From Diphasiastrum complanatum (Eukaryota > Streptophyta > Lycopodiopsida > Lycopodiales > Lycopodiaceae): a stretch of DNA of 64,000 nt. The notes beneath the pieces were generated by a model. The model saw nothing but the letters and a program-made list of their open reading frames with translations, searched no databases and was not told the DNA's origin. The position numbers were made by a program, and so were the translations under genes. The stretch lies in contig MU832096.1 of the NCBI GenBank assembly GCA_029204225.1, forward strand, positions 1 through 64,000, given 5' to 3'. This document shows, piece after piece, positions 9,207 to 39,800 of this stretch (the first letter of the stretch is position 1; every line of letters starts with the position of its first letter).

Positions 9207-9816
9207 CAAGTCAAAGAGCTTAATTGATGATCCAAAAATCTTCATTTTGGTGAAAGCATTGGTGCTAGATTCACTTTGAAGGAGGGCGACCTTTTCTAAT
9301 AGTTTACTTGTGATGTTGAGGTTCAAATTAGTGTGTAAAGTTCAGATGTACTTCTCACATGTGTGAGAGGCTGCTGGAGTTGTACTTTCACCAAAACTTT
9401 GTGTTTTTTCAATATTTGAGCTTCAAACAAGTTGTGTAGAGTGAAACTAGTGATGTGCTTATGAAAAACCATTGTTTCCATTATAGATTTGATGAGTGAA
9501 TGGTGTTAGAATCTTATTAAACCTACAAATCCTTGAGAAAGAGTTTGAGGCTTATGTTTTTATTTTAAGAGTGAGACTATAACCAATTTTAAACACCATA
9601 GGAAGGCATTGGCACTTCCAAAAATCAAATCCAAGGTTCTAAGTGAATAGATTGTGTAGAATACGCTTTCCCAAATCTTTTTGAGTTCAAGATCATTATA
9701 AATCTTGCTTCTTGTGTCTAGTGAGATTCAAGAGAGTAGCATTTTAGCTAAATTCTGAGAAAGGAAGAAGGGAGAGCCTTTGAATAGTACATTTGTTGTA
9801 CTTGTTACTGTATAGA

Positions 9817-12800
9817 ATGGGTTCAATTGGAGCCTATCTTCTTGAGACTAGTGAAAGGCTAAATTCTAATAATTATTCAACTTGGAAAGTAAGAATGGAG
9901 TCACTACTTGTGCTCCAAGATATGTTTGATCTTGTCATAGGAGAGGAAGAAGAACCTCAAAGAGGGCAAGATCAAGTGAGGTACAAAAAGAGAGCTAGAC
10001 TAGCATTACATTGCTTGAAAATGAATCTTAGTAATGAACTTATAAAGGAAGTGACATCTTGTACCTCGACCAAGGAGGCATGGAACTACCTGAAAGGGAT
10101 TTATGAATCCAAAAACACCTCTAGAGTGCTTTTGATTAGAAACAAAGTTCTTCAAAGCATTAGAGGGAGTGATGAGAGTGCTCAAGAGTATGTCTTGAGA
10201 ATAAAATCTCTCAACAAAGAACTTTCCATCATTAGTGAGGGTATTCATGATAATGAGCTTGTTCAAATCATTTTGAATGGTCTTGGAGATGAGTTCTCCA
10301 ATCTTGTACAAAGCTTTGCTATTCAAGATGCACTACCTTCCATTGACAAGCTCCATAGTGTGCTTGTGTTCATGTCAAGCAAAGGATTGGATCCTCAAAG
10401 TTGCATGATGGTGATGAGAAGGCCAACTTCTCAAGCAAGGGAAAGTCAAAGTCAAAGAAGAAGATCCAACACAAGGAGACCAAGAATGATGATCAACCAT
10501 CAAGCTCCAAAGGTGGAAAGAAGAACAAAGCTAAACTGAAGTGCTTCTTTTGTGGAAAGAAGGGGCACTTTGCATCCGAGTGTTTCAAGAAGAAGAATGC
10601 ACAAGGAGAGAGCAAACAAGGCAACCTCACTCTTGAGGAAGATGAGGATGAAGTGGATTCATCCTTGATGGCTTCTACATCAACATCAAAGAGCTACTCC
10701 AATGACACATGGTGGATTGATAGTGGGGCTAGTTCCCACGTGACATTCCAAAAGGATTTTTTCTCAACTCTTGTACCTTTTGTAGGTTATAAAAAGTCTA
10801 TTCTAACAGCAAGTGATCAAGAATGTAGAATAGATGGAGTGGGAACTAATCCCTTAAGTCTTGGATCCTCTAAAAGAGTAGATCTTGATAATGTACTCTA
10901 TGTTCCTACACTCACTAAGAATTTGTTAAGTGTAGGACAATTGATGGATGATGGCTTAGATGTCCATTTTAAGCGAGGTGTTTGCTCCATATTGATGAAT
11001 TATACTTGCATTGTAAAGGGATTCAAGCAAGGAAGGCTTTTTAAGCTTGATGCTAATGTTTTTCTTGGAAGTGTGAACATGGTGAAGGAGGAGATCAATC
11101 AAGTCGAGCTTTGGCATAAGAGGTTGGGCCACCCCAACTTCAAATCTATGGAGATGCTATGCACCAAGGATCTTGCTCTCGGCCTTCCAAAGACACTCTC
11201 AAAGTGTGGAAAAAGTTGTGAAGTTTGTAGCCTCTCAAAGGCACACAAGCTACCTTTTGATATCTCTTCCAATAGATCTACAAAAGCATTAGATCTTATT
11301 CATAGTGATGTGCACTCTTTTTCTCAAGAATCTAATGGAGGCGCATCTATGTATGTATCTTTTATTGATGATTATTCTAGATACACTTGGATTGAACTTT
11401 TGGATTCCAAAAGTAAAGTGTTTGAAGCTTTTGTTCAGTTCAAAACTCTAGTTGGCATTAAGAGAGAACTTACATGTACTTATAGTCCTCAACAAAATGG
11501 TATAGCCGAGAGGATGAATAGAACACTATGTGAGTGTGCTAAGGCTTTAAGGTTAGATGCATCTCTACCTTAGTCTTTTTGGGGAGAGGCTATTATTTGT
11601 GCAACTTATCTGTGTAATAGATTGCCATGTAAGCCCATTGGAGGCATAACATCTTATGAGGCTCTATTTTGTAAGAAGCCGAATCCTAAAGATCTAAGAA
11701 TTTTCGGATCTACTTGCTATGTTTTTCAAGCATTAGATACAAGAAAAAAGGATGGTCCTACTTCTATTAAAGGGATCTTTGCTGGTTATGCTGAAAATAA
11801 CAAGGGATATAGAGTCTATAATCCAATCTCTAAGAAGATTTTAGTGAGTAGAGATGTTACATTTGATGAAGGTAACTACTACAAGTTGAATGAGAAAGCT
11901 TCTAATCCATCTTATGTCAAGGATCTTGTAAGGTTTGAGGAGGAGCCTACATGTGATCAAGATCTTGAAGATCCATCTCAAGATCCGAGGACTCCAAGGA
12001 GATCTACAAGAAGGAAGGCCGAGCCCTCAAGGCTCACCTATGTTGATAAAGGTGAACAAAGGGAAGATCTACATTCACTTACCTCTTACACTTTTCTAAC
12101 TTCTATGTTTGATGAGCCAATTTTCTTTGAAGAAGCTATGGAGTCACAAGAATGGAGGGATGCCATGCAAAAAGAGTATGATGCTCTTATGGAGAATCGC
12201 TTGTGGATCTTCCTCAAGGAAGAAAGCCACTTGAGTGCAAATGGATCTATAGATTGAAGTACAATCAAGATGGGAGCATCAACAAACACAAGGCAAGGCT
12301 AGTGGCAAAGGGGTTCTTGCAAACCAAGGGAGTAGATTTTGATGAAACTTTTGCTCCTGTTGCTAAGCTAGTTTCCATAAGGTTGATTACTTCTCTTGCA
12401 ACTACTTTCAATTGGCCTCTATTTCAACTTGATGTGACTAATGCTTTTCTCAATGGATATTTGGAAGAGGATATTTTCATGAGGCAACCCGAGGGGTTCA
12501 TCAAAGAAGATCAAGAGAAAAAAGTGTGTTTGTTGCTAAGAAGCCTTTATGGGCTTAAGCAAGCACCTAGAGCTTGGTACTCTAGGTTGAATACCTTCTT
12601 GAAATCTATTAAGTTTGTTGTAAGTGCTTATGATCCTTCTTTGTATTTAAGATTTAATGATGGTAAAATCATCATTTTCATTTTGTATGTTGATGACATT
12701 ATCCCTAGTGGAAATGATCTTGATGGTATACAAGAAGTGAAAGTAGTTTAAGATGGTGGACCAATCTTCATTTCATATTAGGAATAGAAGTTTCAAGAGG

Positions 12801-20752: not shown

Positions 20753-20754
<2 letters not shown>
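18478..20754. other. 5' flank of the XBAT31-like gene and intergenic DNA
   Basis: It should hold the promoter and 5' UTR of the minus-strand gene, but no TATA box could be assigned with confidence. Short open frames near 18.8-19.6 kb and 20.2-20.4 kb show no recognisable similarity. Nothing else is seen. Confidence 0.45.
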
Positions 20755-20818
<64 letters not shown>

Positions 20819-20843
20819 TCACACACACACACACACACACACA
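20755..20843. repeat. (GT)n followed by (AC)n, self-complementary
   Basis: About 29 GT units at 20755-20812, then CGTGTTTC, then 12 CA units at 20820-20843. The two arrays are complementary, so the transcript or single strand can fold into a hairpin; the duplex could adopt Z-DNA. Confidence 0.95.
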
Positions 20844-21737
20844 ATTGCACATTTACAGTAAATCTACTTTTATTGCATATTGTGAGATGTTGACCATTAC
20901 ATGTCTATGGTTTCAGAAAACAAAGTTGATCATACAAATGGTTTGGGGTATCTAGATTTTGGCACATTTGAAATAGCTCAAACTTTATCCACAAATAGCT
21001 CATTGTCGATGTGAATCTAAGCTTTGTGGATATGCATTGTAGATGGTTGAATCTAAACATGACCTTCACATAGAAAGCTTGATTCTTTTGAATGCTGCTA
21101 GCTCATGTTAATCGTCTTATTTTGGCCAAACTGATGTGGTCTACACAATCGATTTGTAGATGACTTCTAACACTAAACAAGCTAAAAAATAAACAATAGT
21201 CTTTAGGAAACTTCCAAGCATCGAGTAGAGAGTTGATAGAAGACACTTGTGGCCATGGTTGAGATTTTTTTCTGTATGAGTTGTCTTTAAATTCTTGATC
21301 TTCATATGTTAATCATTGTGCTTTGAGAAAAAAATTTAATGCATTGACAATTGTCACTAAAATTGAGCACTAATTAGGCCATGAGAAATCTATGAGCTAG
21401 TGATTTGTTGTGTACTACTTAATTCTAATTTTAATATGGAAACCAAAGTAATAGCATTGTGAATTGCTTTGATGAGGTCTTTTTGTGTGCACTCTACTAA
21501 ATATGGAGTGAGGAAACCTAAGGTGAATCTTCACATCTTTGCATCCTCATCTTAAAAATATGGAGCAGGAGAAACTAAGAGCTCTCACGAAATCTTTGCT
21601 TGTTGAGTACGTCTATATATTATTCCATCTATTTACTTTATCAATTTTGAAATACTGGAGAAGTCATCGATGATCTTTCATGCAATATATGTCAACTAAT
21701 TCATAGGATGAGCCTCAATCATATTCTCACAATACCT
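20844..21737. other. Non-coding stretch, nothing recognised
   Basis: AT-rich sequence without recognisable coding or repeat structure. Confidence 0.45.
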
Positions 21738-22153: not shown

Positions 22154-22165
22154 AACATGATGACC
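22154..22165 (+). repeat. Left terminal inverted repeat
   Basis: AACATGATGACC. It pairs with the reverse complement of the right end (AACACGATGACA) at 10 of 12 positions. Further inward, similarity is limited to scattered TGAC-containing words. Confidence 0.7.
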
Positions 22166-22980
22166 AAAAAAAAGAGAAATGACTTGACGACCCATTTTTT
22201 TTTACATTTATTAATTTTTTTTAAAAAGTATCCAAATTTAAAATGCTTCAAATAAATATATTGTAATGGTAAAAAAATGTTGTATTTTGCAAGAAAATAA
22301 TTTAAGCTACAAAAATTTGGTAAATAGATTTTTATAAATAGCTTAAAATTAGCTTATATTAAATAATAATACTATTTAAAATAAAATCATTAGATACACA
22401 ACCACTAAAATACCTAAAAAATATTTTTTGCTTACTAAAAACAAAAGTTATAGTTTTTTTTTTTTGGAATTTTAAAAGTTTTCTAGATTACGATTCTTGT
22501 ATCGAAAAAAAATATTTTTTAAATTATGTTAAAAATTTGAATCAATATTTTTTGAAATTTTAAAATTTTAAAAATTTTTACTTACACCCACGTAAGTTTA
22601 TTAAATATTTAAACATTAAATAAACGCAAATAAAATTACTTTACAATAATCAAGATTAAATTATTTGTGATAATATTTAAATCACCCTGAAAAAAATCTA
22701 ATTTTTTTTTTCATTTCTTATAATTTGTAACAATATTTTTTTTACAAAAAATATTATAAAAACACATCTAGAATTAAAATATTGTAAACTTGACAAATCA
22801 TTACAATTTTAATTTTTTGTAATAATTATCAATGTTAAAATTTTTAAAATATTTCAAATTTTAAATTTTAAATCGTTAAAAAATAAATTTAAAAATAATA
22901 AATCAATAAAAAAAAGAATTCAAAACACAATACATCAAAAAATATAAACACAATTATTCTTTAAAACAAAAGAAAATTTT
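22166..22980. other. AT-rich left end of the transposon
   Basis: About 800 bp of very AT-rich DNA, rich in A and T runs and without coding frames, between the terminal repeat and the stop codon of the methyltransferase gene. It probably contains that gene's 3' UTR and transposase-binding subterminal sequence. Confidence 0.5.
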
Positions 22981-25900
22981 TTATTCCCAAAAATCATTGA
23001 TGTCATTTACATCTTTTTCTTTTGCTTTTTCTTGAGTAGCCACTGTACTATCAAGTGGCACCTCTTCTACAATTTCCTCGACTACGGTTACTACATTGTA
23101 ATCTTGAACCAAGACATTAGCAAATTCTCCTGTGTCGCCTACTTTTCCGCTAGCAGGAGGCTGAGGTTCCTTGGACAAGGGAATTATTGTATCCTCGTTG
23201 TCCAAACTCTTTCTCACCTCAGATAATTCATCTGACAAAATTGAAAGAGATTTTATTCTCATTTTTACAAAATCAATTAAATTAGTATCTAAATCTATTG
23301 TAGCAACATGTCTGTCTTTCTGAACAGCACATGCATTCATAGTGCTGTTACCGCTAAATAGATCTAAAACCCAATCAACTGGGTGAGAAAAAATATCAAT
23401 TAAATGATTAATTAATTATTGTGGATTTTAGTAGGGACAAGCCACGGAACCCGTCATTGGATTTTTTGGTTTCTTTGTCACAGTTGGATACTTGAACAAG
23501 TTTTCAAAACTTGTCAATCCGGAAGTGTTATAATGCAGCATCGAGCGTTTGCCATCCAAAGCATAATAACCAATGGTTATGTATTCTATTTTATTGCAAA
23601 GTCGAGCTCCTCCCCAGTTCCTGACATTGGGCTTGTACCTGACATGGAACATTTTAAGTAAAATCAATTTAAAATTTTAATTTTAAAATAAAAAATCTAA
23701 AATAAAATTATGAATTAAAATGCGAATTGATAATTCATGAACTTAAGAACTTACCACACAGCATTCTCAATTCCCGCATTACAGAAAGTTAGTAGAGCTT
23801 TCTGTACTGTTGCTGACTGCCAAGAAGAATGAAAAATAACAACTCTCCAAATTGGAAAAGTTTTGACTTCAAGAAAGCCCTGCATAAAACTATGGATTTT
23901 AGTGAATTTGAAAGGTGTATCATCATTTAATGATTCCTTCATCTGAAATCCATATGGTATATCGGCGATGCAGAGTGTATAAGGCCTTTTTCTTAAATTT
24001 TTTGAAATTTCTCTACAATCGCCCTCCTCAACAGAGTAAAAGCATGGTTGATCATCGACACTTTTGGGAAGGTAGGCCTTTAATGGATACTCCTCCGCAA
24101 TGGTCTCACCCCGTGCCAATCTCTCCATGTCCCTTTTTTCTAGTTTTGCCTTCAGAATATGTCTCTTGAATTGCTCTGGAAGGACTTTGTTTTTTTTTGT
24201 CTTTGGGAGACTGAAAAAAAAAAAAACTATGCTTAGCATGGGAGACAAAAAATATAAAATAGAATAGGAGACTTAACTTATCAAAAAATAATAATTAAAT
24301 AAAGAAAAAGCTATGCTTAGCAAAGGAGACATAGAATATAGAAAAGAAACAATTAATAAGCACCTATGCTAAGCATGGGTGAAATAAATACCATGTCTCT
24401 AAACAAAATAAAAAATGGACTCAGGGCTTTATTTCGGTTGCTCAAAGGATAAAGCCTCTGGCACTCATCGCAATCTTGACAATTTCCTGTCACGAGGGCT
24501 TCTTGAACTTTCATAAATAATTTGTGCCTGCATTCAAAAAAATATAATTGTTAAAAATCCAACCAAATTATGAAAATCATTTTATTAAAAAAGGTAACAT
24601 GAAAATAAATATTTAGATTATGATTATCACCTCTAAAATTCTTTTCTCATTTCTGCCAGGGAAAGGTGACCATCAGCAACTCTTGAAAGAACACTTATTA
24701 TTAGCTCTGAAGAGCTAATCCCTTGCATAGTCTTCCACTCTACTATTCCCATTTCAATAGGGATTGGATTCAGAGTTTGAGTGCTCACAACTTTTTTTTT
24801 TGGACTTTGAGGCACCCTGAGCAGGTTGGCCTTTTATTTGAAAAGTTTTCCACTTATCAAAAAATTTATCAACAAGGGCCCACACCTGAAATAAATAAAA
24901 AAAATAATTGATAAAGAATTTAACCAATATTAAGATTGAGTTCAAAATTTTAGTCTGATAAAAACAATCTAAAAAAATTATAACATATATTATGACCATA
25001 GCATTCCATGACAAGCATAGCCAAACAAATTACCTGGCCACTACGAAAAGCAAGCTGAAAAAAATTATCGTATTTAGTAAGGCTCTGCGTAGGATTTTTC
25101 GAATCAAAAGACAGGCTTGTCTCTTGAGCACATAGTGCTTTCAGCTCAAGTTGATTCACATCTCTTGCTTTGGAGACTCTCATGTATTCTTTGTGAAAAA
25201 AAACAAATTCTTTTATCACGGTCATCTTCATCCGGTAGTCCTGATCAATATTGTGGTCCCAAGCCAATAATTTCGCTTCTTCCACTGTCAGGCCAGCAAA
25301 TGCAATGGCACTTATAGTTCAAAAGCTTGGAATATGGGGATACTCTTGAGATAATTGTTTTTGAGCTTGTAAACTGTGTATCCCCCCAAGAACAAAAAAA
25401 TGATATAAATCTAATAAAGAAAAATCAAAATTTGCAACATCGTTGCATTCGTTGGGATCAACCAAAACAACAAAGGGAGTAACTATGGCCTGTGTATGAT
25501 CTTTAAATTTTATTTTTAAATTATGTACATGTGTTTCATTAGGCTCTCTAACTTTCATTGGCATGTCTCCTGTTATTGGGTCTACAGGTGGCCTATCACA
25601 CTGATTTATGTCTAAAATTAAAGTTGTTTCTTTTATTTTTTTTGTTTTATGGATATCCTTTCTTAATTTGGCAAATTCGAAATTGTCTTGTAATTTTCAG
25701 TAGAAGGGATGGACTTATGGCGATGTGTAGCCATGGTCTTTGGGCGTGACTTAGGTCTAGTGGACGAAGTCTCAGAAATATTATGAGACCTTTTTTTTGG
25801 GGATGAGGGACGGCTACGGTTTCATCCTCAACATTTTCAGAGGCCGGCTTTGTGACCTGAGCAGTGGTAGAAGCGGGCTTGCGAGGTCCAGTAGATACAC

Positions 25901-26468
25901 CTTTCGAACTCCGTAATGAATAGACCAAATTTTTTCTCTCAACAATAGCAGCTAAAACCATTTTTAAGCATTGCTTCATGCTCTGGACAGAAACAGAAAT
26001 CAAGTTTAAAATATAATGACTAAAAGCTTAAATCTAAAAGTTTAAATAATTTTATATCTAGTAACAACTATGCTAAGCATGAAACAAACATGATTAAAAA
26101 TATATTTTATAATTACTCACCAAAGTAACTAGAGCTTTATCAAAATAGGCTTTGATGGCCCCGTCCTGACAAAGTCGGATCTTTATCATAGTCTCGTTCA
26201 AAATGAAAATAGAACGAGACTTATCCGTCTCCTTTACAAGTATATTCACAAAACCTTCTTCTTGATTCTCATCTGGTTGATCAGTGAGCAATCTTCCTTG
26301 AACTTTGAATTGCGAGTCTCCTCTGCCAGGCTTCTCAGCTAAATGAATAGAAAGCTCCGAAAGCTTTGTGTTGTTGACCCCTTTGGTGAAATAGCACATG
26401 AATTTTTTCTTATCTTTTAACGGAATATCTTGAGGTTTCCCCGATATTTTAAAAGAAATCCTTGACAT
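22981..26468 (-). pseudogene. ParB-like domain fused to a beta-class DNA methyltransferase (damaged, intron-containing)
   Basis: Model exons: 26497-26121 (likely Met at 26468), 25982-25790, 25686-25034, 24885-24631, 24527-24392, 24210-23755, 23638-23451 and 23378-22981, about 875 residues. Residues about 200-345 resemble ParB/sulfiredoxin domains: MKVREPNETHV, then FFVLGGIHSLQAQKQL, then AGLTVEEAKLLAWDHN. A short Cys cluster (CQDCDEC) follows. From about residue 600 comes a beta-class amino methyltransferase in IV-to-I order: CIADIPYGF (motif IV), AVWYKPN, then VLDLFSGNST and IDLD (SAM site). ParB-methyltransferase fusions are common in phages and bacterial mobile elements. The D in DIPY suggests N6-adenine, but N4-cytosine is possible. 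Damage: TGA at 25319-25321, TAG at 24633-24635, and one-base slips in A runs at 24792-24801 and 24190-24198. The N-terminal 116 residues are unrecognised. Confidence 0.8.
24227..24379. repeat. Three intronic copies of the palindromic motif
   Basis: CTATGCTTAGCATGGG at 24227-24242, CTATGCTTAGCAAAGG at 24311-24326 and CCTATGCTAAGCATGGG at 24363-24379. All fall in the intron between exons 24392-24527 and 23755-24210 of the methyltransferase gene. A further half-degraded copy is at 26068-26080, in its first coding intron. Confidence 0.75.
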
Positions 26469-26689
26469 CTCAAAAATTATCAAAGGCAATTGAAAATCTG
26501 CAAAAAAAAAGACTTTTTAGGAAAATTGGAAATGCTATCTTAATGAAAATGCTGAAAACTTTAATAAAACAACCCATTTTTGTGAAAAAAAAAATTAAAA
26601 AACAAAACTACAAATTCAACATATTTTCTTACTAAAACATCTCAAAAGGATCACTTTTCTGAGACAAAGCGTTGTAAAACAAGAAAATA

Positions 26690-27120
26690 CGAGTAACGAC
26701 CTATGCTGAGCATAGGTTGTGGTCGAGTCCTTACTAACAACTTATGCTTAGCATAGGACGGAGGGTGGATTCTTCAATTCTAACCTCCTTTCGACCTATG
26801 CTGAGCATAGCTTTCATCTCTGGTCCTGTTCCAACCTATACTCAACATAGGTTAGCAAGCAAATTGCGAAGACATCCTATGCTCAGCATAGGTCATTACT
26901 CGCGCGCTCTTGTCCAACCTATGCTGAGCATAGGATGTCTTCGCTATTTGCTTGCTAACCTATGCTAAGCATAGGTTGGAAGAGGACCAGAGATGCAACC
27001 TATGCTCAACATAGGTCGAACCGTGGTAAGAATAAAGAAATAACGTCGGAATCCTATGCTGAGCATAGGATATTACTAAGGACCCGAGCACAACCTATGC
27101 TCGGCATAGGTTAAAGGAGA
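26690..27120. repeat. Nested palindrome: ten short palindromes inside one long inverted repeat
   Basis: The unit is ACCTATGCTGAGCATAGGT with small variations. Unit centres are at 26708, 26749, 26803, 26843, 26884, 26926, 26967, 27007, 27061 and 27102. Each left centre pairs with a right centre summing to 53810, so the array is mirror-symmetric about 26905. The DNA between units is also inverted-complementary; for example ATCTCTGGTCCT near 26816 returns reverse-complemented near 26985. The axis has CGCGCG at 26901-26906. Extra copies at 27144 and 27228 continue the spacing on the right side only. It lies between two divergent genes and could be a binding array (parS-like), a bidirectional promoter operator or a replication origin. 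Confidence 0.9.
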
Positions 27121-27516
27121 GGATTGGTGCAGGCACCTATGCTGAGCATAGATTACCCATGTTGCAAGAAGATGAATACAAATTAAAATATGAATATTTT
27201 CTTATGCAAGAATTTATTACCCATGCTAAGCATAAAGCAAAGCTAGAAAATGACAATAATCTTACTGTCAAAAAATCTGGAAGCGAGAACGTATGCGAAA
27301 TCTTATAGAAAGCCGTGACTTGGTCGTAGCGATTGCTTTGGCAGCATGTGGGCTTCTGAATTCGCAAATGAGGTGAGTTATGCTTGGACCATGGTCCCTA
27401 AATAATTTTTTTTTCGAGACCCCCGTCTCACGCCAGTCCTCCAGCTTACTTCAGGACCAAGTTGTCGCGACTCACCTCACCCCACGCCGACCTCGAGTAT
27501 TAGTCCAAACAGTCCA

Positions 27517-27559
27517 AACCTAACCCTAAACCTAAACCTAAACCTAACCCTAACCCTAA
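27517..27559. repeat. Telomere-like repeat (CCTAAA/CCCTAA) inside the transposon
   Basis: About six tandem units mixing CCTAAA and CCCTAA, including the telo-box core AACCCTAAA. Plant telomeres are built of CCCTAAA, and telo-boxes also occur in plant promoters, where TRB-type proteins bind. Here it lies about 260 bp upstream of the start codon of the right-hand gene. Confidence 0.85.
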
Positions 27560-27700
27560 GAATGCTGCCAAACAGTATTCAAGGCATGGTAGCCGCCGTA
27601 AATTTTTATTAACCAATTACTTTTTAGGCTTGTTGCTCATTTGCATTTAGTTGGTTTTTCTGTGTACATCTATTGAGGTTCGCATAGGTTTTTATTTGTT

Positions 27701-27786
27701 CTATGACTAGCATAGGTTGCAGTTATGTTTGAGGAGCACATTTAGTGTGGTGTTAACTATTTGAACGGTTCTATGCTTAGCATAAG
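27701..27786. promoter_or_regulatory. Two palindromic motifs just upstream of the right-hand gene
   Basis: CTATGACTAGCATAGG at 27701-27716 and CTATGCTTAGCATAAG at 27771-27786, with a half-site (GCATAGG) near 27682. The second copy ends 31 bp before the ATG at 27817. They match the unit of the central array, so the right-hand gene could be regulated by whatever binds that array. The regulatory role is inferred. Confidence 0.55.
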
Positions 27787-27816
27787 TACGTAGTTAAAAA
27801 ATAATTTGAGGCTACG

Positions 27817-30800
27817 ATGTCAAGTAGTTCTACCTCTTCTATTCCAGTAGTTGTAACTCAATATGTTGCAACAAGTGCAACATCTTCATCTAACATTCCC
27901 AATGAAAGTTTTTTTTATAAAGCCACTCATGAATCTGAACATATTTTGGTAAACGATGTGGCATCATCATCATTTACCCGTTCATCATCTAAAATTTCTC
28001 GAGAAAGTACTTTTCAAGAAATGACGTCTGTAACTCAACTTGTATCAAATCTTTCGACCTCATCCTCCTCTTCAGATACAGGCTCGGCACAACTAGAACA
28101 TTGTTCTCTTGAACAAGTTGAATCATTGAGTGATGAGTCAAAAGCTTCAGTTCACTCAGTTACTGATTCTAGTAAATCAACAGATCCACGTAAGTTTGTT
28201 GATCCGCGACGTTCAAGTTTTTCTCATGTTCGTAGGAGACCTTCTCAAAGTAATGTTCGTCGTGTTAAATCTAAAGGGCTATATTTGTTGAAAATTTAGA
28301 GCCTTCTGAGGGTCATGAACATCTTGGGGTTGGAGCCAGAATTCCCAGTCATGAAATTCCAACACCTTCTCAGCCAGTTCAAGCACCTACTAGTGTCACA
28401 GGTTCAATTTATAGATCAGACTCCAAACAAAAAGAAAAATACAAGAGAGACTTGAGATCCTCACCTGATTTAACGAATCGTCAAAAATAGTTGATTACAA
28501 AATCTGAGATTCGAAAGGTACGAAATATTATTTGCTGCTCATCCTGTTATTTGCAAAAGCTGAGTATCAGAGAAATTGAAGAATTAAAATCAAACTTCTT
28601 TTTACGAAGTAAGGATGAGAGAAATTACTATTTGTGTGCAATAGTGAGGCTGGACAAAAATTCATTTTTGTATTTTTTAAATGCTTTGGAGGTTTGTCGC
28701 AAAGCTTACAAAGCAATTCACACAATCGGAAACGCACGGCTTCAACGAATGCATGCATGACTTCAGAAAGACCCAACATTACGGGAATCCTTACAGGGTT
28801 GAACTGTTTCTCCAAATGCTTTAAATGCAACTGCTTGGCTAAAGCATTTCATAGATGTGCACGGAGAAAAATTGTCTAATTCCTTATATTTTCACTTGTC
28901 GAAAATTTTACAAAATTAGAAATATTTTTTATTTACAAAGAGTTTGCAAAAATAAAAAATGTTCCCTATTTGAGTTACTTATATTTTCTTAGAATTTGAA
29001 AAAGAGATTTTGGACTGGTAAAGATTCTCAAAAAATCATGAATGACAGTATGCTCCACTTGCAAGTTGTTAAAGTCTGCAAAACAACTTGCAAAGACCAA
29101 TGACGAGAAAGGTAAATATTAATCAAATTTGTCATTCATTTTAATACTTTCTGTTTTGAAAAAATTTATGTTGCAGTTTTTTTGAACACCATTATGTTGC
29201 AGTCTTTTGAACACCATTATGGTATGATCTTTATTTTATTAAATAGAGATCAACAAACAGTTGAAAGACAAAAGTTGGCCAAGCATCAAAAGAAATGTTT
29301 GGAATGTCCACAAAAATATCTGGGACTTGTTATTGATGGCATGGATCAGAAGAAAACAATGTTGTCTCATTTTGTCAGAGTGCCCAAAAATTTGAACAAG
29401 GCAGATTTTATTCAGGTTCATCTCGTTGGAGCACTTGTGTTTAATGGCACTTTGGAGTCCAAGGTCTTTTTTAATTATCCCAATGTTCGAAATGATCCAA
29501 ATTTGACGATCACCATTGTACATAAGATAATGTGCGAATTTGGTGAAAATCTTCCAAAAATACTTTATTTGCAGCTTGACAACACTGCTAGGGAAAATAA
29601 AAATCAAACTGTTTTGGCATACTTGTCTATGCTAGTTGTAAAAATTTCAAAAAAGTAAAAATAGGATTTTTGTTGGTAGGACATACCCACGGTCAAATTG
29701 ATCAAATGTTTAGTAGCTTTTCTAAGAGGTTGAGACGCAAGAAAGCATTTTCATTACCAGTGCTTCAAAGCATTGTTGAGGAATCGTATGTGCCAAAGCC
29801 AAACGTGTCATTTATCAAACACACATATGATATTCGTGATTATGATGCGTCCAATGAAACAGAGCGATGCGTAGCTAATATTAATGATATTAGCTTTCAA
29901 CACTAGTTTAAAATCAAATGTAACGAATCAGACATTATATTATTATGGGGCAAACTATTTTCAAATTCAGTTTCGTGGTTACCTCTTGAAGGAGTTCGAT
30001 TTTTGCTTAACATTCCATCGACTCAAATCAAGCTTGTTGTGTTGTCTTCCTTGAAGTCCTTGCTAGAAGAACAAAAGGCGCAAAGAGAACATCGTGAGAT
30101 TGATCCATTTGCCTCATTAAATTTTTTGGAATCAAGTATTCAAGCAGCTTATCATTTTTTTTGATGAGTTTGATCAGCATTGGTGGATGGACCTTTTCGA
30201 GGAACAAAAAATCAGTTTGCTCAATCTCGAACATACATCAACAACTGATGAATTTCATTGGCCTCATAAATTAGGAACATCAACTACGATTGTCAAACCT
30301 TCAGATCTTCCTCGAGATAATGATTTCCTGCAGCTTGTGCAAGGTGAGGAACGTGAAATTTATGTGGGCTCAAGGAAGAATAGGCAAAGTGTAAAAGTTG
30401 CAAAAATGAAATGGCGCGGTGATTTGAATGAAATCCAAATTGGAAGCCTTGTTGCACTTCTAGCTTCAGAAAACAATGAAGGACATCCATTTTGGATTGC
30501 CAAAGTACTTGGTTTTATTCAAAATAACAATCAAACAAAAGTACTATGTGTCCATTGGTTGCGCACCACTTCAACAAATGCTTTTTTGGGAAGGTACGAA
30601 CTCGAAATGTTGCAAGTAGATCCAAAGGGCAAGAGAAAGAGATTGCCAAAAAATCAACCAAGAGTCGACGATTTGAATCTACAGGATGTAGATGTTTTGG
30701 CATTTAATTTTGAATTAACAATGACCAATCATCTACGAAAGTCAACAATATCTATATTGAAAGAACGACTTGGATTACTTGAAAAACCATTATCCTCCAC

Positions 30801-30996
30801 TCGTCATCAACAGAGAAAAGCTGATTTACAAGATTTTTTGTCAACATTAGATGCGGATTTTGAGGAAGACATGCCAGTTGACTCTGATGAAGAAGACGGG
30901 TCTTCCACTTCATCAGCTGAAAACGAGAGTGTTGAGAATATGTCAAGTTCTGAATTGAGAGGCATCAGTGAAAATTCCTTAGAAAATGTACTTTAA
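27817..30996 (+). pseudogene. DUF7869-like protein, candidate transposase (damaged)
   Basis: The ATG at 27817 opens a Ser/Thr-rich N-terminus. After a frame slip near 28276 come a Cys-rich segment (ICCSSCYLQKLS, near 28530), a VCRKAYKAIHTIGNARL segment (near 28700) and a VCSTCKLLKSAKQLAK segment (near 29040). An intron fits at 29112-29176. The central domain has the DUF7869 landmarks VIDGMDQ (29332), LQLDNTARENKN (29575) and VGHTHGQIDQMFS (29679); their Asp residues could form a DDE/D-type site, which is my inference. The C-terminal part has a PFWIAKV phrase (near 30490), reminiscent of chromatin-reader modules, and ends acidic. Damage: TAG at 28488, TGA near 29000 and 29030, TAG near 29904, and frame slips near 28276, 28808, 29641 and 30155, most of them at homopolymers. 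Confidence 0.75.
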
Positions 30997-31286
30997 AAAA
31001 AAGAATGTGCAAATATAATTTAAGTTATTTTGTATTTCAATGGGATTTTGAGTTTCAAAAATCATTTGTTCTCTTGAATTATTATTTCATTTGTAATTAT
31101 GATGGTTTTATGAAGTTTGCAACAAAAAACTTTTAGTTCTTTATATAAAATATGTATTTTTTTTGCTTTTTTTAAAAACAAAATTTAGAGATTTATTAAA
31201 AAAATCCATGATTTTGGCCTTAAACTAGGACCATTAAAAAACACCAAAAAAGATTACTCTTTTTCATGTCAAAGTCCCAAAACAAA
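30997..31286. other. AT-rich right end of the transposon
   Basis: Non-coding AT-rich DNA between the stop codon of the right-hand gene and the right terminal repeat. It probably includes that gene's 3' UTR. Confidence 0.5.
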
Positions 31287-31298
31287 TGTCATCGTGTT
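31287..31298 (-). repeat. Right terminal inverted repeat
   Basis: TGTCATCGTGTT on the plus strand, whose reverse complement AACACGATGACA matches the left end. It is followed by the TAAA duplication at 31299-31302. Confidence 0.7.
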
Positions 31299-31660
31299 TA
31301 AAATGATATTTATTTTCTATATGCTTCATGTGTGCATGAAATACAATATTCTTAACTAGTTGAATAGCACTTTGGCTTTCACACCTGATTACTGTAGGCT
31401 TACTTTGCAAGATGCCAATGTAATTACATTATTGTTCTAGCCATATTGCCTCTTGTGTAGCTGAACATAGGGCTTTGTAATTTGCTTATGTTGTAAAAAG
31501 AGCAACTTTTTCTTGTTTCTTGCTAGACCAAGAAAATACACCATTGCCAACATAAAAAATATAACTAGTGGTGGATCATCTATCGTCCATACAGCCTACC
31601 CAATCTGAATCAATGAAGCCCTATAAAACTAATAAAGCTTGTTGTCTATCATACGACATT
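31299..31660 (-). pseudogene. Copia RNase H, right side of the split
   Basis: Minus-strand translation, moderately decayed, gives the copia RNase H domain upstream of the part at 22004-22153: the HIE..YHF phrase next to the junction and the family's usual 'ALSSTEAEY'-type region around 31450-31500. Similarity fades near 31660, where the reverse transcriptase should begin, so this copia was truncated as well as split. Confidence 0.7.
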
Positions 31661-32949
31661 GTTAGAGATTTTGGGCGAGTAAAATCCCTTGATGCATCAT
31701 TTGTGCGACGCATATTGAATCAAATCATGATGGCGAGTCAAAATGACATGACTGATTCTACTTGATTATGACTTCAAAGTTGTTAGAATCGATAGGTTCG
31801 ATTACGTAGACAAACACCCGGTAGGTGGGGGGTATGTGGGAGGTTAACCACCATTGAAATTAGTGCATGATCGAAGGGGACTGTATAGTCATGCCCTATA
31901 TGGATCACGGTAAAATGATCAACGTGGAAGGTGAAAAAGGCCCTCTGGACTACAAAAAGGTCCTACATGAGAGGTACGTCCATCGTGTCTAAGCCTGTGA
32001 CAGTCAAAACTGCTAGGCCACCATTAGTGCAAAGAGTTGTGAGCTCTTGCTCTGTAAGCATGGGCATGATGGTGTGTTGCAATGGTGCATGAGCAACAGG
32101 GGATCGACGGATAGATCGGAGAGAAGTCTCTCTCTCCTCTCGGCTACGGGAAGTGGATGTGGTCGGTGATGAGGACTGGTTTGCTGGGACGAGGATGGTG
32201 AGTGGTCGTTCGGGATGATGAGGTGGGGCTCGAAGAATGGCTAGGACTAGATGGTGGGGCGGTGCTCCTGGTGAGTCTGACTCATTGTCCAGGGGAAGGA
32301 GACTCGTTGTCCAGGGGAAGGAGAGTCGTTTGAAAGTCGATGTTTCAATGCCATGTAGGCAATCAGGGGTTATTTCAAGGTAGGAGGGTCAAAGAAAAAA
32401 ATGGAAGCTATAGATGAGTTAAAAAGGCTAATAGCGAGTTAGGACAAGTAAATGACTTATGGTAAGTAAATGGATGACGGCGAGTAAGGGCGAGTAAAGG
32501 GAAATGGTGGAAAATGAGTTCAGGAGGCTGCTGGACTAATGGCGAGTAAAGTGGATGGGGGATGGGCGAGAAACACAGATGGCGAGTAAAAGGTTCTGTG
32601 CACGAGTTAGGATGAGTAAATGAAAACGGTGAAAAATGGTGCGTGAAAGGTGCGGGCCTGATGGCAAATAAGCTATTCTTCTCTTTCCATTCTTGAATAT
32701 CTTTGCATGTTGTTTCATAATTTAAATGCCAAGCTTGGCCTAGAAAAAACTCAAGCTATATGGGTTTCTCAAGTCTAGTTAGTAGTATACAACTTGCATA
32801 TAGATTATAGACTTAGAAATGTGATTAATATGCTTGTAAAAACTTGTGGAATATCACATGCAATGGTTGTAAGTGATCCATAGTGACATGCAAGGCATGC
32901 ACAAAGTGAAATCGACACATGCATGATGATTTGTACAATTCTAGTTGGA
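31661..32949. other. Non-coding stretch with 'GGCGAGTAAA' words
   Basis: No gene recognised. Between about 32390 and 32680, the word GCGAGTAA or GAGTAAATG recurs many times at irregular distances, giving a degenerate low-copy repeat of G-rich character that differs from its AT-rich surroundings. Confidence 0.45.
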
Positions 32950-33264
32950 AAAATGACACTTGGTGTAGGGATCAAGTTATTACTTCACGACTTACATCAC
33001 ACTCAGTTCAATGCTACTACCATTCTATGTAACTACTTGAGCTGTATTTCACTGTCACTAAATCCCAGATTTCATGGCAAATCCAGGCACATAGAAATCC
33101 AGTATCACTTCATTCGGCAGAAAGTTTTCTTAGGGCAAGTGATCCTCTAATACTGCTCCACAACAGAAATGGTCGCAGACATCTTCACCAAAGCGCTTCC
33201 CAGGATCAAGCAACAGAAGTTCTTCAACATGCTGAACCTGACGAAGATACCAAGGCACCAACTG
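32950..33264 (+). pseudogene. Copia RNase H C-terminal fragment
   Basis: Plus-strand translation, with one stop, reads as the end of RNase H (HIEIQYHFIRQKVF, then a TEMVADIFTKALP phrase). It is followed by the polypurine tract AAGGGGGAC and the LTR that begins at 33281. It closely matches the minus-strand sequence at 51848-52225, so both belong to one family. Confidence 0.8.
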
Positions 33265-33280
33265 TGACCTTAAGGGGGAC

Positions 33281-34361
33281 TGTTGAAAATTAAGCCCACA
33301 ATTGTCTCCTTGGTGAATCATAACTTAGGCAGCCAACAATTTGAAGAACGTCTACAACGAGCTTTTGGCTGATCTCCAGCAAAGGGTAACCAATCCTATT
33401 ATAATTTCAAGTTCAGATGTTAAGTTTAGTAACTTGAAGACATTCAAGACTTGGCCATCTTCAAGGACTTCCACAAACTTGCATTCAGAACAAGTCTGCA
33501 AATTTACATTACTTTTTGAACAGTCTGCAGAAATACACTAAGTGTCACGCAGTTCGCATTTTTTGCACTTTCCCAAAAACTGCGAAACTTGTCTTCGACT
33601 TCTTCCGTTCAACTATTTTGAAGAAGTCAACTTGTTCACAGTTCAACAATTTAACTATTTTCAACACCTTCGGCTTTTTCACATTTTCTCAAATAATACA
33701 AAGAAAGATGAATTCCAGAAGGTCCTCTATTTTTAAGGGTTAAACTATTAAATACACCTGTGCCAATTTTCTAAGGGCACTTTAAACTTGTTTACAGCAC
33801 CTTCACCTTTTTTGCAAAATCCCAAAGAGAGAGAAAAATGTCGAAGGTCGTCTATTCTGAATGAGGTACGTTCCCATGTCACTTCCCAAAATTTGCGAAG
33901 TGAGAGAATTTACGACGTCCTCGTCAGCGTCAACGATCCTGATTTGTTGACCGTATATACTATGTACAATTGTCACAAAGCCATATGCTTCCAAGTACAA
34001 CGACTTTCCTAATTAGGTGACAATCATTCAATGTAATACATGGATGAAATCTATAAATAGATCATCCAAGCACAGATAATTGGTTGCTCAGTCCATGAGA
34101 CACATTATTTGAGCCTCCCAGTTACACCGTCATTCTTGGTTGTAATTGTTATTTGTATTGTGCTTCAGTGTAATATAGTAGTAGCTGAATTAATTTTTAA
34201 AATCTTGTTGGACAATCAAAACGCATAAAGTGATTATCTTTAGCATAAGTTGTCAATTAGATTGGTTTTGCACCTAGCAGCCGATTAGGACGGGAGAGCT
34301 ATTCCGCAATATTCATGCTCTCTTCTCCGTTCTTGTTCTTCCTATCTCTCTTGCCCCATCA
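33281..34361 (+). repeat. Copia LTR (1.08 kb)
   Basis: It starts TGTTGAAAATTAAGCCC after a polypurine tract and ends CCCCATCA before a primer-binding-like sequence. The minus-strand LTR at 50460-51834 and the partial LTR at 56938-57578 are the same family; the 50460 copy is about 300 bp longer, so this one has an internal deletion. It is flanked on the left by RNase H and on the right by gag, so it serves as 3' LTR of one copy and 5' LTR of the next. Confidence 0.8.
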
Positions 34362-34376
34362 GATTGCTATCAGAGC
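34362..34376 (+). other. Degenerate copia primer binding site
   Basis: GATTGCTATCAGAGC; the related copy near 50450 (minus strand) still reads TGGTATCAGAG. Confidence 0.6.
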
Positions 34377-34429
34377 GTAGTCCAAATAAACCGAGAGATT
34401 AAGTTTGTCTATTTGTATACTGTTATCAT

Positions 34430-35778
34430 ATCTCATATAGGTAGCTCTTCATCTTCATCACTCAGTGAAGCTAGAGTCATTGACAAGTTCAATGGTTCTA
34501 ACTTCTACATTTGGAAGTTGAAACTTAGAATAATGTTGATTGGGATGTAGCAAAAGGTGCAGACCTAAAACCAGAAGATGGTGATCAAGTAAAGACCTGG
34601 AAGATCAAAGATCAGAAGGCCTTAGCATGTATCACACTCAATCTGGTCGACTCCCAAATATCTCACGTTACCACGTGCAAAACCTCTAAGGAAGCATTGG
34701 ACTTGTTATCAAGTATCTATGAGACTCACGATGTAACCACAAGATTACACTGTTACTTTCTCATCTGAGTAGTGTACAATACTCGAGGAAGATACTACTC
34801 TGACTACATGCACTAGAGTCGGAAATCTTTACGTACTCTCTTACATTAACTAGTATCTCTAATGAAAATGTAAACGACAATGTTGTTCTGTGGCATAGCC
34901 GATTTGGACACGTGAATACAAGATCAGTATTTTATATGCTTTGTAATAATTTAGTCGATAGTTTGAATTTTCCATCTTCATTAGATAGGAAATCTTTCTT
35001 TTGTGAATCATGCATCTATGGGAAGCACTCTAGAAGCAAGTTTCCAAAATCACATTCCATCAAATCAAAGCATGTATTAGATCTTGTACATAGTGATCTC
35101 TATGGTCCAATGCCAACTCCAGCCTTAGGAGATGTAGTCTATTTTATCACTTTCATAGATGATTACTCCAGATGGTCTACAGTCATGTTCATTAAGCACA
35201 AATCTGAAGCCTTTGAATGCTTCAAGAGATTCAAGGCCATGGTTGAGACACAAACGTCTAAGAAAGTGTAGGCACTCCGAACTGATGGTGGCGACAAATA
35301 CATCTCCAATGAGATGTCCGACTACCTGGTTGAACATGGCATCAAAAGACAGTCCAATACTTCTTATTAACCTCAACAGAACGGGATTGCAAAAAGGAAG
35401 AACCGAACTCTTCTCAACTCAGCCAAATCAATGCTACATCAAGCACACCTACCTACAAACTTCTGGGCAGAAGCTACTGCCACAACCTGTTATGTGCAGA
35501 ACAGATCCAACACCAAAGTTGTCAACAACAAGACTCCTCATGAAGTTTGGCATGGGCACAAGCCTAGTGTCAGCCATTTAAAAATCTTTGGTTGTATATG
35601 TTTTGTTCACATTCCTAAACAGCTTAGGAAGAAGCTAGATCATAGGACAAATAAATGTATTTTCATTGGCTATCTTGATGAACATAAAGCTTTTAAAGTT
35701 TATGATCCATCCACCAATGTAGTGTTTGTCTCTAGGGATGTAATATTTCAAGAACATGCATATTATGATTTCAAATAG
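34430..35778 (+). pseudogene. Copia gag fragment joined to integrase
   Basis: Gag N-terminal coding starts near 34430 and is cut near 34750, where the sequence jumps to the region just upstream of the integrase. The integrase zinc region and core (34912-35271), with a YSRW phrase, and its C-terminal part (35431-35778) follow. TAG and TAA stops near 35268 and 35368 break the core. The end of gag, zinc knuckle and protease are deleted. The minus-strand sequence at 55518-56621 is a near-identical relative. Confidence 0.85.
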
Positions 35779-35851
35779 CCATTGATAGATAAAGGTATGT
35801 TATTTCATCCTATTCTACGTAGCATTCAACCTTCTAACGTTGATGATTCAC

Positions 35852-36121
35852 TTAGAATTTTCTTTGAACAGGAACACAGATCATGCTACATAGTAACACA
35901 GACAGAAAACACTCTCCATAGCAAGCTCACATAGCAACTGTATTTCTCAAAATGAAATTACATTATACATATAGTTGTTCACTCAAGCAACCCATGCATG
36001 ACCTAGGTTGTCGTTGGCGGGACGCGTGTCCCGTCGACTTGCCTCGTGGCAAGGGCAACCAATCCTTATCAACTGATAGGACCCACAGTACAGCAGCACA
36101 GTGATTCTACTTTAATTCTAA
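35852..36121 (-). repeat. 3' LTR of the 36-41 kb copia element
   Basis: Nearly identical in layout to 40580-40847; it shares the stretch with GTTGTCGTTGGCGGGAC and the TTAGAATT/AATTCTAA ends. The polypurine tract CTTTAAGGGAGAG directly adjoins it at 36122-36134. Confidence 0.85.
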
Positions 36122-36177
36122 CTCTCTCCCTTAAAGTAGAGTCTACTTTTTACACAATCATATACATAGCTTTAAAG

Positions 36178-37562
36178 TCAACAAACTTTAAGTACAGAAA
36201 GCTTTGATCTAAACTTATCAAACTTTTCTCCAACAAGTGGCTTAGTGAAAATATCAGCTAGTGGTTCTTCCGTACTACAATGAACAACATGAATTTCACA
36301 ACTCAGCAGTCTCTCACGTATAAAGTGATACTGAATCTCAATGTATTTGGTTCTCGCATGGAACACTGGATTCTTTGCTAGTTGAATGCCACTCTGATTA
36401 TCGTTATGTAATGTCGTTGGATTTTTCTGCTTCATGCCAACCTCTTCCAAGATTTGTCTCAACCATATAGCTTCATGTGCTGCACTACACATTGCCTTAT
36501 AATCTTCTTCTGTGGTGGATAGAGCAATTGTACTTTTCTTCTTACTAGACCAAGAAAGCAACTACCACAAAACTGGAATACATACCCTGTGGTGGATCTA
36601 CGATCATCATAGTCACCTCCCCAATCTGCATAATCATAGCCGCACAACTCAGGTAAACCATCATGCTTCCTATAAATCAAGCCATAATTTGAAGTGCCTT
36701 TCACATAACACAAAATGCGTTTAGCTGTCTTCCAATGCGTTTCCGTGGGTGCTGCCATAAACTGACTTACAATGCCAACAACATAGCATATATTTGGTCT
36801 AGTCGTGGTAAGGTAAATCAAGCTTCCTACTAACTGCCTATACAGTGTAGCATCAAATGACTGTGACTCATCAAGCTTAGAAAGCTTTTTACCTGGTTCA
36901 ATAGGAGTATTCATTGGTTTGCAATCCTGCAACCTAAGCCTGTGCAGCAACTCTTTGACATATTTCACCTGTGTTAAACCCACTTCATGTCCTTTTTGCC
37001 ACACCTCTGCTCCAAGGCAATAATGCATCAGGCTGAGATCTGTCATCTCAAATTGTTCCATGAGGTCTTTCTTGATCATGTCTATCATCTCTTGATTATT
37101 TCCTGTAATAATCAAGTCATCAACATAAAGAGCAATCAAAGCAACCATACCATCAAAGCATAAGACATATATATTTGGATCAGAATGTATTCTCACCATC
37201 CTCTTTGAATGAAAGTAGGCATCAATCCTACTGTACCACGCACGTGGTGCCTATTTAAGACCATAAAGCGCTTTCTTCAAGCGACATACTTTATTTTCCT
37301 GTCCCTTTGCTACAAAGCCTTCAGGTTGATCCATGAACACTTCTTCTTCTAACTCACCATTTAGAAAAGCATATTTCACATCCATCTGATGCAAAGGCCA
37401 ACCAAAATGTGAAGCTAAAGCAACAAGTAGACGTAGAGTATTCCACTTACATACTGGCGCAAAGGTCTCCTCATAGTCAATGCCTTTACTTTGTGCATAC
37501 CCTTTGATCACCAATCTTGCCTTGTGCTTTGCTATACTACCATCTGCATGGTACTTAGTCAT
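36178..37562 (-). pseudogene. Copia reverse transcriptase and RNase H
   Basis: Reading on the minus strand, 37562-37251 holds the N-terminal reverse transcriptase (KARLVIKGYAQ; DYEETFAPV) and 37199-36459 the catalytic part with YVDD near 37120. RNase H follows at 36561-36178 (ALSTTEEDYKA, then DNQSGIQLA, ending KFRSKLSVLKVC). A stop near 37250 and a frame change near 36560 interrupt it. Its lineage differs from elements A to C. Confidence 0.88.
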
Positions 37563-39039: not shown

Positions 39040-39800
39040 TGAAATCTCAACTGGAGAGCTCGTGTCCAATCTCAACCGACGCCTTTTTCATATCTCAGCC
39101 GATGCTTTCCTTCATATCTCAACCGACGCTTCCCTTCATATCTCAGCCGACGCTTTTTTCATATCTCAACCGACGCTTCCCTTCATATCTCAGCCGATGC
39201 TTTCTTCATATCTCAACCGATGCTTTCTTCATATCTCAACCGACACTTCCCTTCATATCTCAGCCAACGCTTTCTTCATATCTCAAGCGATGATTTCCTT
39301 CATATCTCAGCCAACGCTTTCCTTCATATCTCAACCGACGCTTTCCTTCACATCTCAGCCGATGCTTTTTTCATATCTCAACCGACGCTTCCCTTCATAT
39401 CTCAGCCCACTCTTTCTTCATATCTCAACCGATGCTTTCCTTCATATCTCAACCGACGCTTTTTTTCAAATCTCAACCGATGCTTTTTTTCAAATCTCAA
39501 TCGACATTTTTTTTCAAATCTCAACCAACGGGTTCGTGTCAGATCTCGACCGACAGGTTTTCGATCAAATCTCGACCGACGGGTTCACGTCAGATCTCGA
39601 CCGACGAGTTTTTGATCAGATCTCGACTGACGGGTTCGCGTCAGATCTCGACCGATGGGTTCGCGTCAAATCTCGACCGACGGGTTCGCGTCCGATCTCG
39701 ACCGATGGATTTTTGATCAGATCTCGACCGATGGATTCGCGTCAGATCTCGATTGACGGGTCTGGGTCTAATCTCGACCGACGAGATTCCACACGATCTC
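39040..39800. repeat. Minisatellite with a unit of about 23-25 bp
   Basis: About 30 imperfect units. The left half repeats a 'ttcatatctcaaccgacgct' type unit and the right half, from about 39525, a 'gtcagatctcgaccgacggg' type unit, so one array has evolved into two variants. Because many units are 24 bp, several frames stay open, producing artefactual long open frames such as 38909-39841. Confidence 0.92.

Follow-up and report, generated by a model that had tools for sequence, protein, structure and literature searches.

The question raised by a series of minus-strand reading frames in the clubmoss Diphasiastrum complanatum is whether a plant can own a gene in which a ParB-like domain is joined to a bacterial-type DNA methyltransferase and, if so, what carries this gene and what its product might do. 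The window analysed here consists of the first 64,000 nts of contig MU832096.1. Every peptide quoted in the original prediction was found on the minus strand at its expected position, and the limits of the gene are also unchanged, from an ATG at 26468-26466 to a final TAA ending at 22981. The window copy shows six minus-strand exons, each bordered by GT-AG. Exon 1 (26121..26468) encodes the N-terminal part; leaving aside two duplicates of the window locus, 5 independent sister places match it. Exon 2 (25034..25982) contains a linker, the core of the ParB/sulfiredoxin fold (about 25605-25231, as placed from the model of a relative, P0003) and a helical, HTH-like part. It is followed by exon 3 (24631..24885), also helical, and exon 4 (24392..24527), while the methyltransferase is encoded by exon 5 (23755..24210), with motif IV in ADIPYGF, and by exon 6 (22981..23638), with motif I in VLDLFSGNST and an acidic tail.

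The GT-AG borders were thus as first described, but the exon phases agree only when several breaks, unreported earlier, are read over. Exon 2 contains a frame change in an A-run, a deletion of 55 bp relative to other copies (25694/25695) and a TGA at 25321-25319. Exon 3 contains an A-run frame change and an in-frame TAG (24635-24633), exon 5 an A-run frame change near its start and exon 6 two TAA stops (23430-23428 and 23418-23416). Because of these four in-frame stops, three frame changes and one deletion, the window copy is a pseudogene. The exon order is nevertheless unchanged in other genomic copies, and two relatives, P0032 and P0036, carry both halves in the same segment order within one predicted protein, which supports the view that the exons belong together. 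The central claim, that a ParB-like half and a beta-class methyltransferase form one spliced plant gene, is supported at the level of predicted proteins.

Of 7995 candidates scored for the ParB-like half, 39 are relatives with E values no higher than 7.4e-28. A protein search with the broken joined sequence gave no match, and one with a profile of three copies did. A model of relative P0003, built with 39 sequences (mean pLDDT 77.1), gave ParB, Noc, KorB and PadC proteins as its top 14 structural rows, with KorB among the best matches, although the best Foldseek E in the PDB was 0.011 and several of the top VIA rows had an rmsd above 10 Å. The structural match reaches into the DNA-binding helices of ParB. 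The N-terminal half is accordingly modelled as a ParB/sulfiredoxin fold, a claim made through P0003 and not through the window copy, for which a single-sequence fold of exon 2 was uninformative (pLDDT 35). Pfam ParBc matched neither the window piece nor any of 6 copies or 5 relatives having this half (protein P0006, which is without it, is outside the count), so that the ParB/sulfiredoxin-like stretch of the original prediction stands by fold and fails by Pfam. The CTP-binding motifs of ParB are GERR and ENxxR. The position of GERR reads GxH(S/T/L/G) in all 36 relatives with letters there, and an HNxDxxYR-like second motif is kept in most relatives; because of the GxH(S/T/L/G) reading, a CTP switch may be absent. 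The clubmoss half differs from ParB, Noc, KorB and sulfiredoxin in having no Pfam ParBc match and in its substitution of GERR, and the predicted protein differs from them in being eukaryotic and in combining this half with a methyltransferase and an N-terminal beta domain.

The methyltransferase half was recognised by PF01555, the search proposed as a check, at E 2.2e-9 in the window copy (38 bits against a curated cut-off of 26.7), and all seven copies tested gave a match with E no higher than 1, the first with 52.9 bits and sister copies down to E 2.2e-14. Its profile also matches CcrM (E 1.1e-7), RsrI and MboIIA, and PvuII weakly. The PF01555 and CcrM matches, together with the 39 relatives of the ParB-like half, place the reading of a gene beyond chance. 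Motif IV (DIPY, 23963-23952, exon 5) precedes motif I (23370-23341, exon 6, FSGSGTT-type), confirming the IV-to-I order. The Ile at the second residue of the usual DPPY, presented earlier as a feature of this copy, is present but is better described as a family trait, because nine of the 11 copies have DIPY and the other two NIPY; P0006, also from D. complanatum, has DIPY. The clubmoss family thus departs from the canonical (D/N/S)PP(Y/F/W) and, with DIPY or NIPY in its place, the predicted enzyme is assigned by profile and motif order only to the permuted, CcrM-like beta-class amino-methyltransferases. It resembles CcrM, RsrI and MboIIA in having motif IV before I, YQKP..L and FSGSGTT, and differs from them in DIPY/NIPY for DPPY, in its N-terminal ParB-like half and in being encoded by an intron-bearing gene on a plant transposon. 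Among nine sister copies, motif I reads FSGSGTT in five and a variant of it in four, and YQKPQ is present in all nine. Compared with these, the FSGNST of the window copy is decay, and its *NPQ*, in the place of YQKPQ and with a stop on either side, is likewise decayed.

The fusion gene shows purifying selection in its codons, with the methyltransferase exons behaving like the rest. Median dN/dS is 0.45 for exon 5 and 0.57 for exon 6, versus 0.49 for exon 1 and 0.48 for exon 2; these values leave out the window-locus duplicates C1667 and C2351 and tblastn pieces below 60% identity.

The proposal that the gene is transposon cargo was borne out by the ends of the element, which spans 9145 bp (22154..31298) and is flanked on both sides by a TAAA duplication. 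The homology of five unlinked copies begins precisely at 22154, and that of two unlinked copies stops precisely at 31298. The left terminal inverted repeat, AACATGATGAC (22154..22164, plus strand), pairs with one mismatch with the right end, which reads AACACGATGAC from that side; the minus-strand repeat there (31288..31298) is GTCATCGTGTT on the plus strand and GTCATTGTGTT in the second complete copy. These repeats are 11 bp long, with one or two mismatches in the two complete copies, and a short-word BLAST comparing the opening 100 bases of the element with window positions 27000-37000 revealed no longer inverted repeat. Both complete copies have 4-bp target-site duplications, TAAA in the window copy and ACAT in the other. 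By its repeats and target-site duplications, the element is a terminal-inverted-repeat DNA transposon, of which the window copy is dead. The genome contains 193 matching places, some of them assembly duplicates.

The element codes for two divergent genes, the ParB-methyltransferase fusion gene and, on the plus strand, a gene with DUF7869 (PF25273; 27817..30996), likewise disrupted by stops and frame changes. DUF7869 was matched in Pfam at E 8e-48 after frames within 29182-30164 were joined by hand, and a search of solved structures by sequence gave no significant relative. It adjoins the ParB-methyltransferase gene in 4 of the 13 independent places read, the remainder being truncated, interrupted or read too short. 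Its product is presumed to be the transposase. The comparison with KDZ transposons drawn earlier did not hold, since the neighbouring gene is DUF7869 (in a search of Pfam only) and the duplications are 4 bp long, compared with 8 bp for Zisupton (PMC12730594).

Between the two genes lies a block (26702..27784) of 12 sites within one mismatch of the palindrome TATGCTNAGCATA, at 26702, 26743, 26797, 26878, 26920, 26961, 27001, 27055, 27096, 27138, 27222 and 27772; in the interval 26702-27222, 6 of the 10 spacings are 40-42 bp. In the methyltransferase gene, intron 4 has three further palindromes (24228, 24312 and 24365; 24228..24377) and intron 1 has one (26069..26081). All 16 window sites with at most one mismatch fall inside the element. 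Weaker sites mean little, because 13 of the 31 with at most two mismatches are outside it. Genome-wide, the 21-mer of the palindrome has 1693 sites, versus none for a reversed control. A diverged subfamily (dS about 1.3) retains palindromes in its introns, and copy C8m keeps its intron sites. The palindrome array, the copy number, the spread in land plants and the match to the DNA-binding helices of ParB had no place in the original prediction.

Relatives of the ParB-methyltransferase gene occur in other land plants. Those labelled 'Gb_' are presumably from Ginkgo biloba, and these Ginkgo-like relatives keep DPFSGSGTT or DLFSGSGTT; copies also occur in the fern Ceratopteris and in Calypogeia. 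The suggestion that the gene was captured from a prokaryote is consistent with its domain families, which are prokaryotic and from which such an ancestry is inferred, but searches of limited sensitivity confirmed no prokaryotic protein or contig as a relative. None of the 25 stretches picked up by a scan of genome contigs, made with two short patterns, was confirmed, and among 64 phage methylase records the 15 listed are 24.8-33.0% identical. Two viral contigs, L009 and L010, were dropped as chance matches, matching at 27% over residues 5-98 only; the L009 match belongs to a phage-like frame of 235 aa that has the pattern word KLEKRDME in common. Mycobacterium phage Quico was also discarded as an earlier example of the fusion: in its methyltransferase, Pfam recognises no ParB part and hhalign with the ParB-like profile matches nothing.

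We propose that the element is a self-marking or self-regulating modification system, in which a palindrome-binding, methylating fusion protein is encoded beside the presumed transposase, and judge the chances of this reading to be about even. The predicted fusion protein consists of an N-terminal beta domain, a ParB/KorB-like half and a CcrM-like amino-methyltransferase. The second of these parts would, in living copies, most likely bind the palindromes, which are mostly about 41 bp apart, near four helical turns, between the two promoters and recur in the introns of the gene itself. At these sites the methyltransferase would modify the DNA of the element itself, N6-methyladenine being the probable product. 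Either this mark or the bound protein would control both promoters and/or hold off host silencing, as VANC does in VANDAL transposons by another chemistry. Tentatively, and with less confidence than in the proposal itself, a land-plant DNA transposon family may own sequence-specific modification, combining a ParB/KorB-like finder of palindrome arrays with an amino-methyl writer, for shielding from silencing and promoter control.

Transposons often bear repeated transposase sites. The palindromes could therefore be internal or regulatory sites of the DUF7869 transposase, with the ParB-methyltransferase recognising something else, as their block is directly upstream of the DUF7869 gene in the same element. 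This is rather unlikely, since the palindromes are not at the element ends, the introns of the methyltransferase gene contain four of them, and the intron sites of C8m persist although no DUF7869 gene was found within the 20 kb read. The protein might also act like KorB, as a regulator whose methyltransferase is dead or moonlighting; it would bind the palindromes and repress or coordinate the two divergent promoters or tether copies, and would have ceased to methylate DNA. KorB is indeed among the best structural matches, the array is promoter-proximal and operator-like, and DIPY replaces DPPY; the dN/dS of exons 5 and 6, the motif I and YQKPQ sequences kept in sister copies, and the motif I kept in Ginkgo-like relatives, argue against a dead enzyme and make this explanation improbable.

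That the element is a large DNA virus that became endogenous, or what is left of one, could be suggested by a ParB/sulfiredoxin protein of the giant virus Orpheovirus, which matches by fold, and by the methylases that phages carry. However, the 9-kb unit has two genes, introns and short terminal repeats, with 4-bp duplications in both complete copies, it matches numerous genomic places and no viral gene was noticed within it, all of which renders this origin very improbable. A spurious joining of unrelated open frames is hardly credible: the window copy is broken and gene finding is error-prone in decayed repeats, but the GT-AG borders, the exon order of other copies and the single proteins P0032 and P0036 oppose it.

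Transposons with writers or erasers of DNA marks are already known, as is a captured bacterial amino-methyltransferase in rotifers. The latter, N4CMT of bdelloid rotifers (PMC8885841), is the product of a host gene, contains a chromodomain and places 4mC on transposons; this enzyme and the clubmoss protein are both eukaryotic and join a bacterial-type N6_N4_Mtase domain to a targeting domain, but the clubmoss gene is transposon-carried and its partner is ParB-like. Fungal TET/JBP DNA transposons (PMC12730594) similarly have a DNA-modification enzyme as an extra gene, with 5mC oxidation in place of a presumed amino-methyl addition and with different enzymes, transposases and duplications. The DNMT retrotransposons of Symbiodinium and charophytes also encode a DNA methyltransferase and may self-methylate (PMC5890265), yet these are C5-cytosine enzymes captured by retrotransposons, unlike a bacterial-type amino-methyltransferase on a DNA transposon. 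Arabidopsis VANC (PMC10398659) is a transposon-encoded protein with target repeats in the noncoding region of its own element, a targeting that the clubmoss protein would share; VANC causes silent marks to be lost and acts on tandem repeats that diverge quickly, whereas the clubmoss repeats are palindromes retained across subfamilies. In the literature searched, no plant DNA transposon was found with a bacterial-type amino-methyltransferase, a ParB-like half and its own palindrome arrays.

The occurrence of 6mA and 4mC in plant DNA is a disputed question. The element is a concrete candidate source of plant 6mA or 4mC, for which the predicted TATGCTNAGCATA sites are numerous and known in advance, and points to a sequence-specific device for anti-silencing or self-control that differs from VANC. 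If true, the modification systems of phages and plasmids would have a eukaryotic counterpart owned by transposons, with 1693 near-exact sites in one genome.

The peptides quoted in the original prediction were all located on the minus strand of 22981-26468, and the six exons of the proposed spliced gene could be placed with GT-AG borders (26468-26121, 25982-25034, 24885-24631, 24527-24392, 24210-23755 and 23638-22981). The matching phases that it described do belong to a real gene, but in the window this gene is interrupted by three frame changes at A-runs, an in-frame TGA, a TAG and two TAA. A 55-bp stretch present in other copies is also absent at 25694/25695, while in a second complete copy of the surrounding element (C1:75838959-75847094) an open frame continues across this stretch. 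Hence, the gene is real but is seen in the window as a dead copy.

The host genome (1.74 Gb, 5176 contigs, with C1-C23 of chromosome size) was searched for the paralogues anticipated in that prediction. Matches to exons 5-6 were recovered at no fewer than 193 places, some of them assembly duplicates; they derive from 3189 first-look candidates, of which 150 were scored. Among the places listed, most contain stops. The element is a high-copy repeat. The window locus and its flanks recur at about 99% identity on the small contigs C1667 and C2351, either as haplotigs or as segmentally duplicated regions of the assembly, and copy counts are therefore inflated. Leaving out these two duplicates, 13 independent places were read in whole or in part (the window, eight others and four more).

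The homology of five copies starts exactly at window position 22154 and that of two copies stops exactly at 31298, with an 11-bp terminal inverted repeat (AACATGATGAC versus AACACGATGAC). Both ends were seen in two of the 13 places, the window and C1:75838959-75847094, and both complete copies are flanked by 4-bp duplications (TAAA and ACAT, respectively), in agreement with the proposal that the gene is transposon cargo. Both contain the methyltransferase exons, the palindromes and a divergent gene with a DUF7869 domain (PF25273, 8e-48 in the window). In the second, exon 3 is incomplete and further stops of its own are present. DUF7869 is present in 4/13 places (window, C1:54.7M, C3 and C1:75.8M); the nine places where it was not found hold truncated or interrupted elements or were read over too short a distance. 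At C12:27.5M, one of the nine, a diverged sequence matching the tail of this gene (39% identity) lies elsewhere in the 20 kb. From its position and conservation, we infer that the DUF7869 protein is the transposase. A short plant-telomere-like run (CCCTAAA type) lies at 27519-27559, between the palindrome block and the DUF7869 gene, and was seen in six of 13 checked sequences (the window, its two duplicates, C1:54.7M, C1:64.9M and the right-hand portion of the second complete element).

Elsewhere in the window, open frames resembling pieces of Ty1-copia retrotransposon polyproteins were recognized by eye at 1987-2700, 9793-12751, 36459-37199, 47839-49287 and 53766-56102; near-identical 206-aa frames occupy 53766-54386 and 54791-55411. 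A 310-aa open frame of degenerate 'ISTDAF' type repeats at 38909-39841 is probably a tandem repeat, and a long (TG)n/(CA)n microsatellite at 20753-20859 is a source of inverted-repeat noise.

The METHYLTRANSFERASE half of the protein corresponds to exons 5-6, which match PF01555 (N6_N4_Mtase) in the window copy (2.2e-9), as predicted, and in 7/7 aligned copies (best 2.2e-14). Against solved structures, the profile matched CcrM (1.1e-7), RsrI, MboIIA and, weakly, PvuII (0.017). The NCBIfam CcrM and PRK11524 adenine-methyltransferase models matched all seven copies with scores far under their cut-offs, which hints at adenine as the target without being proof. The isoleucine noted in place of the usual second residue of DPPY recurs: motif IV reads DIPY in 9/11 copies, including the most diverged one, C8m, and NIPY in the other two. 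DIPY is also found in a D. complanatum protein. The substitution is thus a trait of the family rather than decay. Both *NPQ* and FSGNST of the window, in contrast, are products of decay: 9/9 sister copies have YQKPQ at the first position and five of nine have FSGSGTT at the second. Contigs C1667 and C2351, which carry the stops of the window locus, are omitted from these counts.

Two predicted proteins from a eukaryote collection, P0032 and P0036, each contain both halves, with PF01555 precomputed. Segments of exons 2, 3, 4, 5 and 6 were matched in order in P0036, and of exons 2, 3 and 6 in P0032; both are gene models rather than transcripts, and each is without part of the methyltransferase, including motif IV. 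These matches support the view that the ParB-like and methyltransferase halves belong together. The named sources among 39 related proteins are the fern Ceratopteris richardii and the liverwort Calypogeia fissa, with three 'Gb_' proteins in addition, a prefix shared by P0032 and P0036 that we take to denote Ginkgo. Another protein profile search yielded P0006 from the lycophyte Diphasiastrum complanatum, a predicted cytochrome P450 that continues as a diverged stretch of methyltransferase; this stretch contains ADIPYGF and has 34% identity to exon 5. It represents a second methyltransferase lineage, and the gene model is likely mis-joined. P0039 (362 aa), a more distant relative with 33% identity in the ParB-like part, may form a branch of its own within the family. 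Neither protein list names a bacterium or phage as a source. The families of both domains make prokaryotic ancestry likely, but a close donor was not found in protein, prokaryotic contig and phage methylase searches.

Comparison of C8m with nine other copies gave dN of 0.14-0.18, dS of 1.15-1.78 and dN/dS of 0.08-0.14 (pieces below 60% identity excluded). C8m is thus a diverged subfamily, and the protein was strongly constrained between subfamilies. The remaining 36 copy pairs gave dN/dS of 0.29-1.12 (median about 0.53), as expected for dead copies in decay.

With at most one mismatch, the palindrome TATGCTNAGCATA occurs 16 times in the window, always within the element (14% of the window), versus a mean of 0.28 and a maximum of 2 in 50 letter shuffles. 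Allowing two mismatches gave 31 sites, 18 in the element and 13 outside, and therefore only near-exact sites were counted. Twelve of the 16 sit between the two divergent genes, and the methyltransferase gene has the other four in its introns 1 and 4. Within 26702-27222, six of ten spacings are 40-42 bp, the others being 54, 54, 81 and 84. Genome-wide, the 21-mer AACCTATGCTNAGCATAGGTT was found at 1693 sites with at most one mismatch, versus 0 for the reversed control, and the first four loci listed (three independent places) all match the palindrome block of the element. Eight independent places contain 3 to 19 sites each in 20 kb (up to two mismatches), those with few being truncated or diverged, and 14 were counted in the middle of the second complete copy. 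In C8m, intron 4 still has two exact palindromes and intron 5 has one, and another lies immediately beyond the inverted exon-2 piece of this copy; shuffles of its 20 kb gave 0.1 sites (at most one mismatch). Intron 4 of C8m is strongly changed except for the palindromes, and retention at this divergence argues for function.

The transposon combines two divergent genes, a protein of ParB/KorB fold and amino-methyltransferase kept by selection, and a palindrome array retained in the control region and introns. The palindrome is 13 bp long and odd, as is the operator of KorB. The ParB/KorB-like half would bind the palindromes, which would lie on one face of the DNA if spaced by close to four helical turns, and the methyltransferase would mark the surrounding DNA, so as to control promoters or ward off silencing. 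In the chief rival explanation, the palindromes are used by the transposase; the sites inside introns and those of C8m make such a use less likely.

The closest systems known to us are the TET/JBP genes of fungal transposons (PMC12730594), DNMT retrotransposons (PMC5890265), rotifer N4CMT (PMC8885841) and VANC (PMC10398659). As far as the accessible parts of these sources extend, none brings dedicated palindromes together with a ParB-like half and an amino-methyltransferase in a DNA transposon. Fungal KDZ transposons, to which the original prediction drew a parallel, differ in their duplications: the 4 bp seen here do not fit the 8 bp of Zisupton (PMC12730594). The observation is real and more interesting than a single gene alone, extending to a family of plant transposons that is present in high copy number and has a putative modification system of its own.
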